A stretch of DNA of 23,148 nt from positions 1 through 23,148 of the IMG/VR virus record IMGVR_UViG_3300031974_002451; one strand, given 5' to 3'. Position 1 is the stretch's first letter, and each line of letters begins with the position of its first letter. The stretch is from a virus. A program made the translations under genes and the position numbers. Below are positions 3,929 through 20,750 of the stretch, in pieces. A model generated the notes under the pieces. That model had not been told where the DNA came from and did no database searches. It saw only the letters and a program-made list of their open reading frames with translations.

Positions 3929-3972
3929 AAATATATATAGTCTTACTAAGTCTTACTATATATACTTTACCT
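3929..3972. promoter_or_regulatory. Candidate two-way promoter with AGTCTTACTA operators
   Basis: The plus strand has ATATATATAGTCTTACTAAG, then TCTTACTATATATACTTTAC. Read on the minus strand this gives GTAAAGTATATATA, the same TATA context as P3. Read on the plus strand it gives another TATATATA. Two tandem AGTCTTACTA sites lie between them. This looks like a promoter pair with operator sites. No protein gene directly follows on either side. Confidence 0.4.
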
Positions 3973-4116
3973 TTCTTTCTCTCTCGAAACGCTCTCTCAA
4001 GGGGATGCTCTCTCTCTCTTGTAGTCTTACTAATAAGACCTATAACAACCCCCCCCCAATTTCCCCCGTTTCCTGTCCCAAATTTCTCTTTCATATGCGG
4101 GAGGTTTCTCTCTCGT

Positions 4117-4129
4117 AGTCTTACTAAGA

Positions 4130-4411: not shown

Positions 4412-4654
4412 TCAATCTAAGTGGGTGTGGATAGAACAGTGTTCTGTCGCACAGTCCACTATGCCCGATTCGGGGCAAGGGGTCTTGGTTGGTTGCTTCT
4501 TGTCTGTCACTGATAGTCGCCAATTTGCTTGGCGTCTGACTGAACAAGCACCGTCGCATTCGACTTGCTTGCTACCGTCGTCGTATGAGTGTGGGGTTAG
4601 TTTGCCACACTCGACCATAGGACAGAACTTCATGGTTGTTTTATTTGCTACCAT
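4412..4654 (-). CDS. Cysteine-rich zinc-type small protein, 80 aa
   Basis: The start is placed at ATG 4654 with GGTGAG six bases before it; a GTG at 4663 is in frame but overlaps that ribosome site. The protein has eight cysteines in pairs: C-P-M-V-E-C near residues 11-16, C-D-G-A-C in the middle, then C-P near residue 60 and C-A-T-E-H-C near the end. This layout suggests one or two zinc-binding units. It lies downstream of the amidoligase gene in the same direction, separated by a strong palindrome, so it probably has its own transcript. Family not recognised. An overlapping rightward frame of similar length is rejected as its shadow. Confidence 0.55.
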   Translation of the reverse strand: MVANKTTMKFCPMVECGKLTPHSYDDGSKQVECDGACSVRRQANWRLSVTDKKQPTKTPCPESGIVDCATEHCSIHTHLD

Positions 4655-4701
4655 AATGCTCACCTGCGGGAGTTGAATAAAGGATTAGACTTGGAGATGG
4701 G

Positions 4702-4787: not shown

Positions 4788-7319
4788 TCAATTGTAGTAA
4801 GACCAATTGTAGCCCCAATCATCGGTGCTTTGGTTGAAGTAGTCACCCCGTAGGATTTCGACTAAATCGTCCTCAAAGGCACACGGATTACAGTATTGAG
4901 GTAGGTTATACTTCACACCGTTGGGTCTGATACCTTGATGCTTTTGTGCATCATAGCCATCATAACCGGCACGACTATCGAAGCCAACCCCATACTCAAG
5001 TTCCTCCTTCGCCTTCTTGATAACCCAATAGGGCGGTCGGCCTTGGCCGTATTTGGTTTGCTTGACAACCTTGGTTTTGGTCTTCTTGACCTTCTTCTTG
5101 GGGATATACGAATAAGTCCTCCAATCGTAGGTTATACCGGCCGTTTCCTCACTACCTTCGATGTCACGCTTGGTTATCGTTCCATCGGCATTGATAGTGT
5201 ATTCACGGCCTATGACCGCATCCCAATGAGTCTTGAGCCTATTGCCACATGAAGCCTTGAGTATTGCCTCGGTTGATGCGATTACTACCGCACCGGTCTT
5301 GGCATTGTCAAGACGACCCATTACTAACGGATTACCGCCATTAGTCCAACACTTGAGAGTATCAACACCGTCACGCTTGTCATTCCAAATCAAAGACATT
5401 GAGCCTTTACAGTGTTTGACTACCGTTTCGATGCCACCTTCCTCAAGGCACTGTGCTACCGCTTGTGAGTCAACTTCGCCCGTAGGCTCTTGACCTAATG
5501 CTTTCCAAACATCATCGTGGTTGTGAACTACTCCGTTGTGGACTAAGGTGATAATCACCTTGCGACTGAAATGCGGGTGTGCATTTTCATCAGTATTAGC
5601 ACCATGAGTTGCGAACCGTGTATGTCCCATCATCCAAGAAGTCTCCTTTGGGGTTATCTCCTTGCGTATCTTATTGGCAACGACCGAAGCCGGTAATGCC
5701 ATTTTCAGATAGAACACATTTCCGAGTTTGTTGAAAGCAAATCCCGTTGCTTGAGCGCCTCTAACTTGAAGCCCTTTCAGCAACTTGGTCGCAAGGTTTC
5801 GCTCACTGAACTTACGCCTTGCGACATGGATAGCACCAATTCCGCAACCAACGGTCAATAGTAGCATAGGACTTACGCCCATAACTAACGATACTAAGAA
5901 ACCGCCATACATGCTGAATATAGAAGAACGGGCATTGAACACCGTATCTTCATCACAATACTCGCACCATGTAGTGCATTCGCTACCGTTAGCATTGAAC
6001 ACCGCAAAGCCATTTGACATGGCATCATCAACGGATGATTCACGACATTCAGTGCAAGTCCAAGACCGGTCAAATGGCCTTGAGCCTCTAAAGTGGTGTG
6101 CTATTGCATTGACCTCTTCCGTTGTTGGCTTGATACCGCATTCGTCGTCGTGGTCGCATGTTTGTGAACCGCATCCACTACATGTCTCGGACTTCTTGAA
6201 AAGTTGCCCGAGTGCTAATTGTGGGTCATGTTGGAACACTGTGTTCAAGTGGTTTGAGTTTAGTTTCCTAATTCGCCTCACTTGATGCTTGAACAGTTGG
6301 TCGCTTGGGCTTACACCCAAGAATCCAAAGAAGTCGGTAATTGACTCACCGTTGTAGTTTGTCAAATCCATCATACCGAAGTTAGTGCATCGCTGAACTA
6401 ATAGATAGTGCATATCGACCCAATTCTTGATTTTACGGCCATTTGTAGTGCCTTGATGAGAACGGAACTCAATTGTTCCATATCGCTCAAAGGATTGCGG
6501 ATTAACGCAATAATACCGACTACCACTATTGATGAAGTAGTCGGCTACCTTGTTCAGCATTCTCATATGTTGTTCGTCACTCATTTCATTGATTTGCTCA
6601 AAGTGGTTGATAACAAACGATTTGTCCCATATTCTTGAGACATTCTTAGACCATTGGCCGTTTCGTCTTGAAGTTGAAACCATCATGTTATAGACACGCT
6701 GAAAGTGACCTACAACTAAGAGAACCGCACCAAGAGTTGCTTTCGCATGGTAGTATTTGTGTGAATATTCACCATCGAACTCACCGAAGTTAGAATCGGT
6801 TGAATCCCAAGAATTACTCGGGCTTCTAAGTCCGACATGAAGGTGAAGTCCTGTCGAGCCGTCAACCTTTGCTACGCCTTTCAAGCCGTAGGTAATTTGG
6901 TCTATCCACTCTTGGGTTTCTTCATTCACTAATACCGGTGAAACAATCTCAATGCCACCGGAACTCAGTGAAGAGTCGGTGACTAATTTTGTCACATCAT
7001 CCGAGACCTCATGAGTATAGCCCATATAGCGGACTATTAGGTTCTTGATGGCCTTGAGAGTCTTGCCCTTGCGAGCCTTCTTCATTTCAGACCATTCGAC
7101 TGACTTCTTGGTTAGCCAAGTAGCCAATGCTTCATGAGGCGCTTCCCTTGCATGGGCGGTTTTGATAACCTCCATTTCAAGGCCGATACGCTTTGTCATT
7201 CGTTCATTCATTTTATTTCGAGCGATTGTGACTACAACCGCACCCATGACTACGAAAAGCCATAGTAGCGGAAGGATAGCCTCCAATACACTGTCGCCTG
7301 TTCCATTTGTTGCATACAT
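4788..7319 (-). CDS. Amidoligase - zinc region - class II glutamine amidotransferase fusion, membrane-linked (843 aa)
   Basis: Start ATG 7319 with AAGGAGATG upstream. Order of parts: a hydrophobic segment at about residues 12-33 followed by Arg/Lys; an amidoligase-type domain (Amidoligase_2-like, glutamine-synthetase-related fold) with I-G-L-E-M-E (45-50), T-G-L-H-L-H-V (156-162) and G-T-I-E-F-R-S-H-Q-G-T (281-291); a Cys-rich stretch with CxxC pairs (380-455) that may bind zinc; a second hydrophobic stretch (472-490); and a class II amidotransferase domain. That last domain has C492-G-I-G-A-I, G-H-T-R-F-A-T-H-G (565-573), H-N-G (594-596) and D617, the set seen in GlmS/PurF-type enzymes. The tail (740-843) is Lys-rich, then Tyr/Asp-rich. 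Expected chemistry: glutamine is hydrolysed to give ammonia, and an ATP-dependent amide bond is formed on an unknown acceptor. The nucleophile cysteine should be N-terminal in this family, so cleavage before C492 would be needed. Confidence 0.85.
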   Translation of the reverse strand: MYATNGTGDSVLEAILPLLWLFVVMGAVVVTIARNKMNERMTKRIGLEMEVIKTAHAREAPHEALATWLTKKSVEWSEMKKARKGKTLKAIKNLIVRYMGYTHEVSDDVTKLVTDSSLSSGGIEIVSPVLVNEETQEWIDQITYGLKGVAKVDGSTGLHLHVGLRSPSNSWDSTDSNFGEFDGEYSHKYYHAKATLGAVLLVVGHFQRVYNMMVSTSRRNGQWSKNVSRIWDKSFVINHFEQINEMSDEQHMRMLNKVADYFINSGSRYYCVNPQSFERYGTIEFRSHQGTTNGRKIKNWVDMHYLLVQRCTNFGMMDLTNYNGESITDFFGFLGVSPSDQLFKHQVRRIRKLNSNHLNTVFQHDPQLALGQLFKKSETCSGCGSQTCDHDDECGIKPTTEEVNAIAHHFRGSRPFDRSWTCTECRESSVDDAMSNGFAVFNANGSECTTWCEYCDEDTVFNARSSIFSMYGGFLVSLVMGVSPMLLLTVGCGIGAIHVARRKFSERNLATKLLKGLQVRGAQATGFAFNKLGNVFYLKMALPASVVANKIRKEITPKETSWMMGHTRFATHGANTDENAHPHFSRKVIITLVHNGVVHNHDDVWKALGQEPTGEVDSQAVAQCLEEGGIETVVKHCKGSMSLIWNDKRDGVDTLKCWTNGGNPLVMGRLDNAKTGAVVIASTEAILKASCGNRLKTHWDAVIGREYTINADGTITKRDIEGSEETAGITYDWRTYSYIPKKKVKKTKTKVVKQTKYGQGRPPYWVIKKAKEELEYGVGFDSRAGYDGYDAQKHQGIRPNGVKYNLPQYCNPCAFEDDLVEILRGDYFNQSTDDWGYNWSYYN

Positions 7320-7351
7320 ATCTTTGCATCTCCTTGTCCATATTGGACTAT

Positions 7352-16949: not shown

Positions 16950-19370
16950 ATGCCTACACCAAATGAAGGAGAAAGCAAAGATGATTTTATGTCACGATGT
17001 ATGGGTGACGACAAGATGGTTGACGAATTTGGCAATCCGCAACAAAGAGCCGCAGTATGCAATTCTTACTTTGAGAAAAAAGACGCTACTGCTAAGATGG
17101 AAGATTATATATTTTCAACTCCCGAAGGCGCACGAAAAAAATCAAGAGAAATAGGCTTCGATGGAGAAATACATGAATCAAAAATGGCAGACGGAACAAT
17201 TATGTATTTTCCAGCAAAAACAGAAAAGGAGTTTATTGAATGGTATCGAAAAAATGATTCTGATGCCGAAGAAGAATTAACTGCATTACAGTATGGCAAA
17301 CCGGGCAAAAATGACCCACGAAAAACACCTGCTAAACCAAGCGAGCGCAGAAAGGGGTCAAAAAAGAATCCACCGGGTTCTGCTAAAAAACCTAATGAAA
17401 ACATTAAGACCAGCGAAGGAACCGAGGCTCGTTTGCGTAAATTAATGACTGAACATAACAAAAAGAACAAAGGTAGTAAAGCCAGCATGGGTATGCTAAA
17501 AACTGTATTCCGTAGGGGAACAGGTGCTTTTAGCCGTAGCCACGCACCTAATATGTCAAGAAGCGGTTGGGGTATAGCAAGAGTTAAAGCCTTCTTATAC
17601 TTACTAAGAAACGGCAGACCAAGCAATCCAAATTACAAACAAGATAATGACTTATTGCCTAAAGGACACCCAAGAGCAAAAAAGGCTGATGAAGAATATG
17701 AGGATTGGGATGAAGAACCATTTAGTGCGGCTGAATATCAAGGTCGCAAAGTCACACTTAACAAACCATTCCGCACACCGGGCGAAAGCAAAAAGTTTGC
17801 AGTATATACTAAAAACGCATCCGGCACAGTAGTAATAGTTCGCTTTGGCGACCCTAACATGGAGATTAAGCGTGACGACCCTCAAAGGCGAAAGAATTTC
17901 CGTTCACGCCATAACTGCGACAATCCCGGCCCAAAGTGGAAAGCCCGATATTGGTCGTGCTATCAGTGGCGTAGTGGCGCTAAGGTAAAGTCGGATGAAG
18001 ATATTGATAAGTCAGACGATTCCGTATTAGCCGACATGAGTTGCGGTTGTGGTTCCGATTGTTGTAATGAAGAAGTTGAAGCGGCAGTGCCAAGTCCTAA
18101 AGACGATGAATCCCACAGTGAGTTTATGTCACGGTGTCAAGAAATGGGATATTCAGAAGATGAGTGTATGAAAGCGCATGAAAATCATGAGTTTATGGAA
18201 GAATCAATGCACCATGAAAAAGAATATTATAGTGAGTTCTATACCTGTCCACCCGGCGAAGAGATGCGTGGTGGAGAATGTCAGCGTGTTGCGGTGACTT
18301 TGGATATTGATATTCAAGATATTGAGACTACTATTATAGCAACAACCGGAGAAACTCTAATCAGAATTAGCGGAACTGCCTTCCACGAAGGAGTTAACAA
18401 GAACTCTTGGGGCATTAGGGAAGAATTGGCTGAAAGGCTTGCTGATGAAATGATTGGCGCTGATGTCACACTAAATCACCCAAAGGCTGAAATGGGTCGC
18501 TTCAAGCGAAACATGGACGGTGGAGTGGATGAGGCAGTTGTTGGTGAAGTAGTTGATGCTTCATATCACAAGAGAGCAGGTGGCTACATAGTAAAGTATG
18601 CCGCAGTTATTAAAAGAAGAGAATTATTCGAGGCTCTTGAGTCCGGCCTATGGATGAAACCGGGCTACGGAGTGTCTATCGGAGGAACAGGTGTTCCGAC
18701 AGAAGTTATCGAAGCGGAAAAGTCGGAGACAGGCAGACCTATTATGTGGTTTGCCGAAGATTTTAAGTTTGACCACTTAGCAATAGTCCATAAGCCAGCA
18801 TACAAAGAAGCCAATATAGAAACGGTTGAAAGGGTTAAGGCTGATGAAAACTTTAAGTATCAAACGGCAAGTAGCGTGAACCAATCGAAGGTGAAAGAAA
18901 TGACCGAAGATATTAACGAAACAGAAAATTTGGCTTCTGAAATTGAAGCACTAAAAGCCTCTCTTGTTCTAAAAGATGCTCAAATCGCTGAATTTGAGGC
19001 ATCCGAGTTGGCAAGAGAAGAAGAAAGCAGAATGGAATTGGTGCGAAAGGCATCTGATTTGGGTCTAAGCGGTCATGACGACTTTAGCAAAGAAACCCTA
19101 ACTACTATGATTGCGTCTTGGGAGGCATCAAGACCTGCACCTGTCGAAGAGAAGGTCGTTGAAATGTCACCTGTTGAAGCAAGTGTCTCAGAAGCACCTG
19201 TCGAAGAGGCAACAGAAGAACCTGTTGTCGCAAACTACCTCAACGGTGTTCTTGTTGAGTCCTCAGAATCCTTGTATGCAAGATGCTACAACAGTTGGGT
19301 TAACGCCTACAACGGCTTTATCGCTTCTGACGAAAGCCCTGCACTAACATACGAGGAACTAAAAAACTAA
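16950..19370 (+). CDS. Composite head protein: Cys-module, DUF5824-like, protease (S78-like) and scaffold, 806 aa
   Basis: Several parts in a row. 1-45: E-S-K-D-D-F-M-S-R-C module. 50-120: small domain. 120-155: Lys/Pro-rich linker. 155-245: DUF5824-like part (F-R-R-G-T-G-A-F-S-R-S, W-G-I-A-R-V). 264-346: a domain with R-S-R-H-N-C and Y-W-S-C. 364-372: C-G-C-G-S-D-C-C. 385-412: a second E-S-H-S-E-F-M-S-R-C module. 433-625: a maturation-protease-like domain with likely catalytic H510 (L-N-H-P), S576 (G-V-S-I-G-G) and acidic D608 (F-D-H-L-A-I-V), ending K-P-A-Y-K-E-A-N-I. 655-725: coiled-coil scaffold. 730-806: acidic tail. Most such proteases are 200-400 residues, so this one is long. Likely the scaffold guides shell assembly and the protease then clears it. 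Confidence 0.8.
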   Translation: MPTPNEGESKDDFMSRCMGDDKMVDEFGNPQQRAAVCNSYFEKKDATAKMEDYIFSTPEGARKKSREIGFDGEIHESKMADGTIMYFPAKTEKEFIEWYRKNDSDAEEELTALQYGKPGKNDPRKTPAKPSERRKGSKKNPPGSAKKPNENIKTSEGTEARLRKLMTEHNKKNKGSKASMGMLKTVFRRGTGAFSRSHAPNMSRSGWGIARVKAFLYLLRNGRPSNPNYKQDNDLLPKGHPRAKKADEEYEDWDEEPFSAAEYQGRKVTLNKPFRTPGESKKFAVYTKNASGTVVIVRFGDPNMEIKRDDPQRRKNFRSRHNCDNPGPKWKARYWSCYQWRSGAKVKSDEDIDKSDDSVLADMSCGCGSDCCNEEVEAAVPSPKDDESHSEFMSRCQEMGYSEDECMKAHENHEFMEESMHHEKEYYSEFYTCPPGEEMRGGECQRVAVTLDIDIQDIETTIIATTGETLIRISGTAFHEGVNKNSWGIREELAERLADEMIGADVTLNHPKAEMGRFKRNMDGGVDEAVVGEVVDASYHKRAGGYIVKYAAVIKRRELFEALESGLWMKPGYGVSIGGTGVPTEVIEAEKSETGRPIMWFAEDFKFDHLAIVHKPAYKEANIETVERVKADENFKYQTASSVNQSKVKEMTEDINETENLASEIEALKASLVLKDAQIAEFEASELAREEESRMELVRKASDLGLSGHDDFSKETLTTMIASWEASRPAPVEEKVVEMSPVEASVSEAPVEEATEEPVVANYLNGVLVESSESLYARCYNSWVNAYNGFIASDESPALTYEELKN
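18900..19370 (+). CDS. Nested scaffold protein from an internal start (candidate)
   Basis: In frame within the 806-residue gene, ATG 18900 (Met651) has AAGGTG ending six bases before it, a good ribosome site. The product would be 156 residues: MTEDINETENLASEIEALKA, a coiled coil, then an acidic Pro/Glu/Val linker and a helical end. This repeats the known arrangement in which a capsid scaffold is translated from inside a protease gene (lambda C/Nu3 type). The site sits exactly at the boundary between protease and scaffold parts. Confidence 0.5.
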   Translation: MTEDINETENLASEIEALKASLVLKDAQIAEFEASELAREEESRMELVRKASDLGLSGHDDFSKETLTTMIASWEASRPAPVEEKVVEMSPVEASVSEAPVEEATEEPVVANYLNGVLVESSESLYARCYNSWVNAYNGFIASDESPALTYEELKN

Positions 19371-19823: not shown

Positions 19824-20750
19824 ATGGCAAACGAATCATTAGAAAAAATATTGAATGTATCTGCGGCAACCGGCCCATTCGGCAAGGGTGATGCAGTATT
19901 AGAGCAAACACTTAGAGACTTTATCCAACTGCAATCAACAACAATTGCTATCGGAACAAACCTCGTAGGAACAAGAAATGTAAATTGGTTAACTTTCACT
20001 TGGTACACAGGTGCAACCGGAACATTCCGCTACCCACTTGATGACAACGCAGTTGTTGACCCAACCAAGATTGGAACTGAAAACTACTCAGTCAAACTTG
20101 AGAAGGGACAAGGCCGATGTGTTTTCCTTGACTCCACACTACTTCGTGGCGAAACATGGGAAAACATGAACAGACAACAAATGGCTATCATCCAAGCAAG
20201 AGCAGACCTAATTGACAACCACATTCTAACAAAGTTGGTTGCTGGTGCTGGACAGTCTCAAGCCGCTACTGCTCTTTGGAGTGCTGGTGGTGCAGACCCC
20301 GAAGCAGATGTTCTAAACGCTATGGACTTGATTTTCAAGAACGCAAGAGTCTCCGGCAACGAGAGACTTGCTCTTGTCCTACCTGCTGAACTAAGAGGCG
20401 ACATGTTGAACACACGCCTATACACAAATGTATTGATGTCCCTACAAGAGAGACTAAACTCTCAAATCGGACTTGATGTGTATTACACAAGAGATTACGG
20501 AACAGGCAACGCTATCCCTGCTGGTGGCGCTGGAACTGTTGGTGCTATCTTATTAGTTCCGGGTGCTGAAACTGCTGAGTTCTTCCAATACAACGGTGCT
20601 GGATTCCAAGAAACCGAATTGACAAGAATCGAAGGTGTCGGCTACTCATGGTTGCTAACTTCTTACATGGGAACTGTTATCCACGAACACCAAGACGGTG
20701 CGGCGGCTGGCAAGAACATGAGAATCTGCACTATCACCGGTTGTTTGTGA
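19824..20750 (+). CDS. Major capsid protein (HK97-fold type)
   Basis: 308 residues, AGGAGATGG ribosome site, first after the decoration protein. Sequence features fit an HK97-fold shell protein: a short N-arm, E-loop-like F-R-Y-P-L-D-D near 70, a long spine helix (Q-Q-M-A-I-I-Q-A-R-A-D-L-I-D-N-H) near 125-140, A-domain strands L-A-L-V-L-P-A-E-L near 182, and a C-terminal beta region with E-F-F-Q-Y-N-G-A-G. Codon and residue composition (Gly/Ala/Asn/Thr) is that of an abundant structural protein. Since the upstream gene carries protease and scaffold parts, N-terminal processing is possible but no site is obvious. Confidence 0.82.
   Translation: MANESLEKILNVSAATGPFGKGDAVLEQTLRDFIQLQSTTIAIGTNLVGTRNVNWLTFTWYTGATGTFRYPLDDNAVVDPTKIGTENYSVKLEKGQGRCVFLDSTLLRGETWENMNRQQMAIIQARADLIDNHILTKLVAGAGQSQAATALWSAGGADPEADVLNAMDLIFKNARVSGNERLALVLPAELRGDMLNTRLYTNVLMSLQERLNSQIGLDVYYTRDYGTGNAIPAGGAGTVGAILLVPGAETAEFFQYNGAGFQETELTRIEGVGYSWLLTSYMGTVIHEHQDGAAAGKNMRICTITGCL

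Follow-up and report, generated by a model that had tools for sequence, protein, structure and literature searches.

A viral gene that joins an amidoligase to a class II glutaminase, with a conserved hydrophobic segment against its predicted nucleophile

A fused gene in a tailed virus

The window (the whole stretch of DNA that we analyzed, 23,148 nucleotides) is part of the genome of a tailed virus. Using Pfam and PHROGs, we identified a large terminase, a portal gene, and an exonuclease-like gene beside the terminase, all on the plus strand. The gene of interest is on the minus strand, and residue n of its product begins at position 7319-3(n-1). The features at this locus are:

4788..7319, minus strand: fused amidoligase / class II glutamine amidotransferase gene (843 amino acids, ATG start), identified from profiles and homologues
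7330..7335, minus strand: likely ribosome-binding site (AAGGAG), upstream of the fusion's ATG
7221..7280, minus strand: hydrophobic segment 1 (residues ~14-33), a predicted membrane anchor, preceded by no basic residue and followed by a basic cluster
6240..7199, minus strand: amidoligase domain (residues ~41-360), with the glutamine-synthetase (GS) / glutamate-cysteine-ligase (GCL) fold, from Pfam, conservation, and a structure match
5931..6191, minus strand: Cys-rich linker (residues ~377-463), with CxxC pairs C380/C383, C422/C425, and C452/C455
5847..5927, minus strand: hydrophobic segment 2 (residues 465-491), which abuts the predicted nucleophile; P484 is near-invariant and V490-G491 is invariant
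5844..5846, minus strand: codon for Cys492, the predicted nucleophile and predicted new N-terminus after cleavage, from conservation and a structure alignment
5115..5846, minus strand: class II glutaminase domain (residues 492-735), with R568 at 5616-5618, N595-G596 at 5532-5537, and D617 at 5469-5471
4791..5114, minus strand: C-terminal extension (residues 736-843), weakly conserved, with a YHGYD...GIRPxG...LP motif
4412..4663, minus strand: small downstream gene (83 amino acids, GTG start), zinc-ribbon-like (CxxxECG...CDGPCSxRR), kept beside the fusion in several relatives

GGAGG-like sites likewise precede most of the relatives' fusion genes. All of the motifs that a sequence-only reading of this DNA had reported are present: GLEME (residues 46-50), GLHLHV (157-162), GTIEFR (281-286), and the CxxC pairs, as well as the glutaminase motifs C492-GIGAI, GHTRFATHG, HNG (594-596), and D617. 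Searching the genes immediately downstream of the fusion for a potential substrate peptide turned up only the zinc-ribbon-like protein and another small protein that is probably helical.

Past the 3' end of the fused gene, a CT-rich intergenic region contains three copies of TTAGTAAGAC on the minus strand (3940-3949, 4024-4033, and 4118-4127; spacing 84-94 bp; 0.01 expected by chance), which look iteron- or regulator-like. Downstream of the fused gene in relatives, the same sequence is present on the same strand in 2-5 copies (L002 and L013-L016) or once (L017). Non-coding (CT)n/(GA)n tracts of at least 12 bases are found at window positions 4008, 4147, 7835, 7911, 7929, 8859, 9362, and 9906, and such tracts recur in L035 and L039. 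Elsewhere in the window, an 806-amino-acid ORF after the portal gene (16950-19370) matches phrog_7595 and, weakly, DUF5824. Another ORF (19824-20750) is 79-96% conserved and has no Pfam match; by its position, it might encode the major capsid protein.

Both halves resemble known enzymes

The sequence-only reading had proposed an HMM search for the two enzyme families, and both match above their curated Pfam cut-offs: Amidoligase_2 (PF12224) at residues 213-302 (E = 4.4e-12) and GATase_6 at residues 559-671 (E = 4e-16). PHROGs stretches the glutaminase match to residues 492-738, and the nearest solved sequence to this domain is GlmS (E = 2e-12).

Structure prediction, which the same reading had suggested, gave a GS/GCL fold for the N-terminal half. 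When this half was modelled alone, it matched YbdK with Z = 12.1, and all 50 of the structural matches listed have the GS/GCL fold (Z = 10.5-12.5). The AF2 model of the amidoligase domain has a pLDDT of about 80. E48, E50, D115, E124, H159, H161, R218, R268, E284, and R286 are invariant in the 15 proteins that we aligned, and E48, E50, H159, H161, E284, and R286 are putative metal- or ATP-site residues. These computations show that residues 41-360 form an amidoligase that has the GS fold and whose active-site residues are conserved. The CxxC pairs of the linker are likely to form zinc ribbons. Hydrophobic segment 1, which the sequence-only reading did not name, is found in all 15 aligned proteins.

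The AF2 model of the glutaminase domain (pLDDT mostly 80-94) matches PurF from E. coli (Z = 26.6, rmsd 2.3 over 224-226 residues) and GlmS (Z = 25.8, rmsd 2.3). In the structural alignment, C492 superposes on residue 1 of the solved GlmS and PurF proteins, so it does coincide with the family nucleophile, as had been proposed. The model also aligns with the PRPP amidotransferase of Arabidopsis (6lbp), starting from residue 87 of the latter, which we take to be an enzyme whose N-terminal extension is removed. C492, R568, N595, G596, and D617 are invariant (15/15), so selection acts on the glutaminase chemistry. The computations identify residues 492-735 as a class II glutaminase of the GlmS/PurF type, with Cys492 as its nucleophile.

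The fusion is conserved in related viruses

Including the window, we found 20 fusions, all in related IMG/VR virus contigs. Scans of IMG/VR gave 14 by homology, which share the fusion architecture at 31-66% identity, and the terminase of the virus group led to five more. The order in all of the fusions is an N-terminal tail with few or no basic residues, segment 1, the amidoligase, segment 2, and the glutaminase; most have the Cys-rich linker between the amidoligase and segment 2. V490, G491, C492, G493, I494, and G495 are invariant in the 15 aligned fusions, and in all 20 the hydrophobic run closes as ...VG|CGIG at the nucleophile. The shared architecture of the homologues, the invariance of V490-G491-C492, and the same ending in the five additional fusions confirm that the fused gene is real and strongly conserved, not a chance joining. 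Among the papers available to our literature search, we found none that describes this fusion.

Nearly all of the fusions are in viruses with close terminases (mostly 76-94% identity to the window's), while identity of the fused protein goes down to 31%. The mean pairwise identity is 0.38 for the amidoligase, 0.26 for the linker, and 0.62 for the glutaminase, so the first two diverge faster. Where dS could be estimated, dN was below dS, and this held in 5/5 such pairs for segment 2.

Segment 2 and the proposed cleavage between Gly491 and Cys492

The sequence-only reading had placed a hydrophobic stretch at residues 472-490. This stretch is real and conserved, but those bounds were slightly too narrow: it comprises 27 uncharged residues that end at G491, and the corresponding run has 25-31 residues in each of the 15 aligned fusions.

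Class II glutaminases catalyze via the alpha-amino group of an N-terminal Cys, and in some of these enzymes the Cys is freed by cleavage of a propeptide. Among separate viral class II glutaminases, we could locate the Cys motif in 44, a set that includes some near-duplicate records. In these, only 2-31 open codons precede the Cys, and the residue before it is Met (37 cases), Val (4), or Ile (3). An N-terminal Cys is the normal position in separate viral glutaminases. In the fusions, there are 395-617 open codons before the Cys; in the window, 491 residues lie upstream. As for an internal translation start at Cys492, we rejected it: the codon at -1 always encodes Gly, the codons for V490 vary, and there is no consistent start.

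Given the invariant G491-C492, the conserved active site, and what is known about Ntn enzymes, we infer that the simplest way to obtain an active enzyme is to cut the chain at G491|C492, and we consider this well founded. Self-cleaving Ntn precursors often carry Gly before the nucleophile; for instance, a Gly before the Cys or Thr nucleophile is invariant in proteasome beta subunits and in precursors of acyl-CoA:6-APA acyltransferase. Our favored reading is that the fusion is a membrane-associated pro-enzyme, that it is cut at G491|C492, most likely by the Ntn domain, and that the halves act as one enzyme. We assign this a probability of roughly 0.6.

A host or viral protease that cuts at or near G491|C492, either membrane-embedded or resembling a signal peptidase, would give the same product and the same function. 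The scissile region would suit such a protease: it combines a hydrophobic character with small residues (VG|C) and lies where a predicted membrane segment ends. However, the flank before segment 2 is net acidic in 15/15 fusions, unlike a signal peptide, and the strongly basic sequence after Cys492 would resist export. These flanks are why we prefer self-cleavage; also, an invariant Gly right before the nucleophile is the pattern of self-cleaving Ntn precursors. Overall, we consider a separate protease unlikely.

Even less probable, in our view, is that the fusion remains one membrane-bound polypeptide, with Cys492 acting within the chain or with the glutaminase domain serving as an inactive or ammonia-binding partner. 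Every catalytic residue is invariant, the separate relatives keep the Cys at or beside the start, and Ntn catalysis uses the free alpha-amino group, all of which argue for a cut, although AF2 does build the glutaminase fold with the upstream chain still attached. The lipoprotein-type site that the sequence-only reading had raised would make segment 2 a type II signal peptide, with a lipidated Cys492 and the C-terminal half outside the membrane; [LIV]VG|C does look like a lipobox, but the site is internal, the flank before the hydrophobic segment is acidic and not basic (15/15), the window has Thr at -3, a lipid would block the invariant catalytic thiol, and ATP and glutamine are cytoplasmic, so we consider this very improbable.

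If the fusion is a self-cleaving pro-enzyme, then the Ntn active site would itself cut the Gly491-Cys492 bond, as other Ntn hydrolases do. The cut would free the alpha-amino group of Cys492 and switch on the glutaminase, and segment 2 would be left as a C-terminal tail of the amidoligase half. The halves would then work as one enzyme: ammonia released from glutamine would be joined to a carboxylate by the ATP-dependent amidoligase, and the hydrophobic segments would anchor the amidoligase to the membrane on its cytoplasmic side.

In the uncut AF2 model, residues 464-490 are coil (pLDDT below 50). If the chain is ended at G491, residues 467-490 become a helix (pLDDT about 61). These models were built on 15 sequences and have low confidence in segments 1 and 2, and the coil-to-helix change is only suggestive. 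The charges argue against a simple topology: the positive-inside rule would put the basic residues that follow each of the two segments in the cytoplasm, which leaves no crossing for segment 2. Segment 2 may be a hairpin, or it may insert only after cleavage, or it may not be a membrane segment.

Host and potential function

Several markers suggest that the host is likely to be an archaeon. An ERCC4-type nuclease is encoded by all seven of the long relatives (49331-49759 in G001, with equivalents in G002-G007). Among 14 control genomes, the ERCC4 profile was found in archaea only, and tblastn gave no match to the nuclease in 50,697 phage records. The family B polymerase (PolB) of the relatives is nearest to those of haloarchaeal tailed viruses, at about 24% identity. 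The fusion protein has a pI of 8.3, which argues against a halophile. PCNA, another host marker that we searched for, was absent. We also scanned the alignments of the fusion and of the terminase against 84,980 bacterial and archaeal genomes. Neither scan found a relative (both depend on exact matches to conserved peptides and can overlook distant forms), so there is no host link from this source.

Of the 9 fusion-bearing records of at least 43 kb, 8 encode a gamma-glutamylamine cyclotransferase (PF06094), as does G007 (33 kb); the cyclotransferase is absent from the 23-kb window fragment. Six genomes of a sister group (G034, G038, G039, G040, G041, and G042; 53-65 kb), whose terminase is 55-58% identical, lack both the cyclotransferase and any amidoligase. 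For records of at least 43 kb, this is 8:1 versus 0:6 (P about 0.0014, Fisher's exact test, computed by hand); with the 33-kb record added, it is 9:1 versus 0:6 (P = 0.0009). Because the viruses that we tested are related, the association may reflect one joint gain, or else a joint loss.

The combination of a glutaminase and an amidoligase implies that glutamine-derived ammonia would be used to amidate a carboxylate. Archaea do not have peptidoglycan, so if the host is archaeal, peptidoglycan is an unlikely target. Plausible substrates are a lipid-linked surface precursor and a membrane-associated protein, and blocking superinfection might be the benefit. One article cites a suggestion by earlier authors that such phage genes modify the cell wall against superinfection (PMC10580990). 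More tentatively, we propose a membrane-anchored, self-cleaving amidotransferase of archaeal tailed viruses, in which the segment-2 tail inserts, the glutaminase stays paired with the amidoligase, and the enzyme and the gamma-glutamylamine cyclotransferase together modify a surface precursor or a membrane protein, perhaps to exclude other viruses. This full scenario is possible, but we doubt that all of it is correct.

With 20 natural variants, the limits of Ntn maturation could be tested in one protein, as could how a membrane segment can adjoin a buried beta-strand. Also, the fusion brings a phage module into viruses that probably infect hosts without peptidoglycan, and this limits the roles that the module can have.

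Comparison with known systems

A phage gene pair for an amidoligase and a class II glutaminase was reportedly described by Iyer et al. in 2009. The sequence-only reading had suggested a search for homologues with the two halves as separate genes, and we found the pair as neighbors in the phages PaP3, Kovu, Laroye, Ottawa, and StefiGeyer. More broadly, we sampled 16 viral records that have a separate glutaminase; 13 of them also encode Amidoligase_2, in most cases a few hundred bases ahead of the glutaminase. The pair (PaP3 orf46/orf45; Arthrobacter phages Kovu, Laroye, and Ottawa; UFV-P2 ORF23/25) belongs to the same two families as the fusion, with the amidoligase first, and a gamma-glutamylcyclotransferase-like gene is often nearby: Kovu, PaP3, and StefiGeyer encode the cyclotransferase along with the pair, and in Geobacillus phage GR1 it adjoins the amidoligase. 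The difference is that the phage pair is two genes, with the Cys at the start of the glutaminase, whereas the fusion is made as a single chain that also contains hydrophobic segments and a Cys-rich linker. In the fused gene, the two members of this known pair are linked end to end, and the glutaminase Cys is not at the N-terminus when the protein is translated. A RimK-type ATP-grasp protein, which is present in PaP3, was not found in 12 records of relatives, with the controls working. A search for PF14395 (COOH-NH2 ligase, as in PaP3) gave no match anywhere, controls included.

GatD is a class I type amidotransferase. MurT/GatD is a pair of a ligase and a glutamine amidotransferase that amidates a carboxylate of lipid II (PMC3267633). 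We liken it to the fusion as a functional analogy only; its ligase is from a different (Mur ligase-like) family.

The glutaminase of the fusion shares its fold and catalytic residues with GlmS and PurF. In those proteins the glutaminase is the N-terminal domain, whereas in the fusion it follows about 490 residues. In PurF from B. subtilis, human PPAT, plant PRPP amidotransferase, and GltS, the Cys becomes N-terminal only after a propeptide is removed from the precursor. These propeptides are short and have no enzymatic function, while in the fusion an entire enzyme, including predicted membrane segments, lies upstream. To our knowledge, class II glutaminase domains are found either at the start of their polypeptide or after a short propeptide of tens of residues, and the roughly 490 residues ahead of Cys492 are a point against our favored reading. 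Here, a whole enzyme would be the pro-segment, and a hydrophobic stretch would touch the scissile bond. The sequence-only reading had suggested a new kind of accessory system, which goes too far: the pair itself is an already-described phage module, and its fused, probably pro-enzyme form is new. What is new is the fusion, the C-terminal position of the glutaminase, the hydrophobic segment against the predicted scissile bond, and the probably archaeal host.
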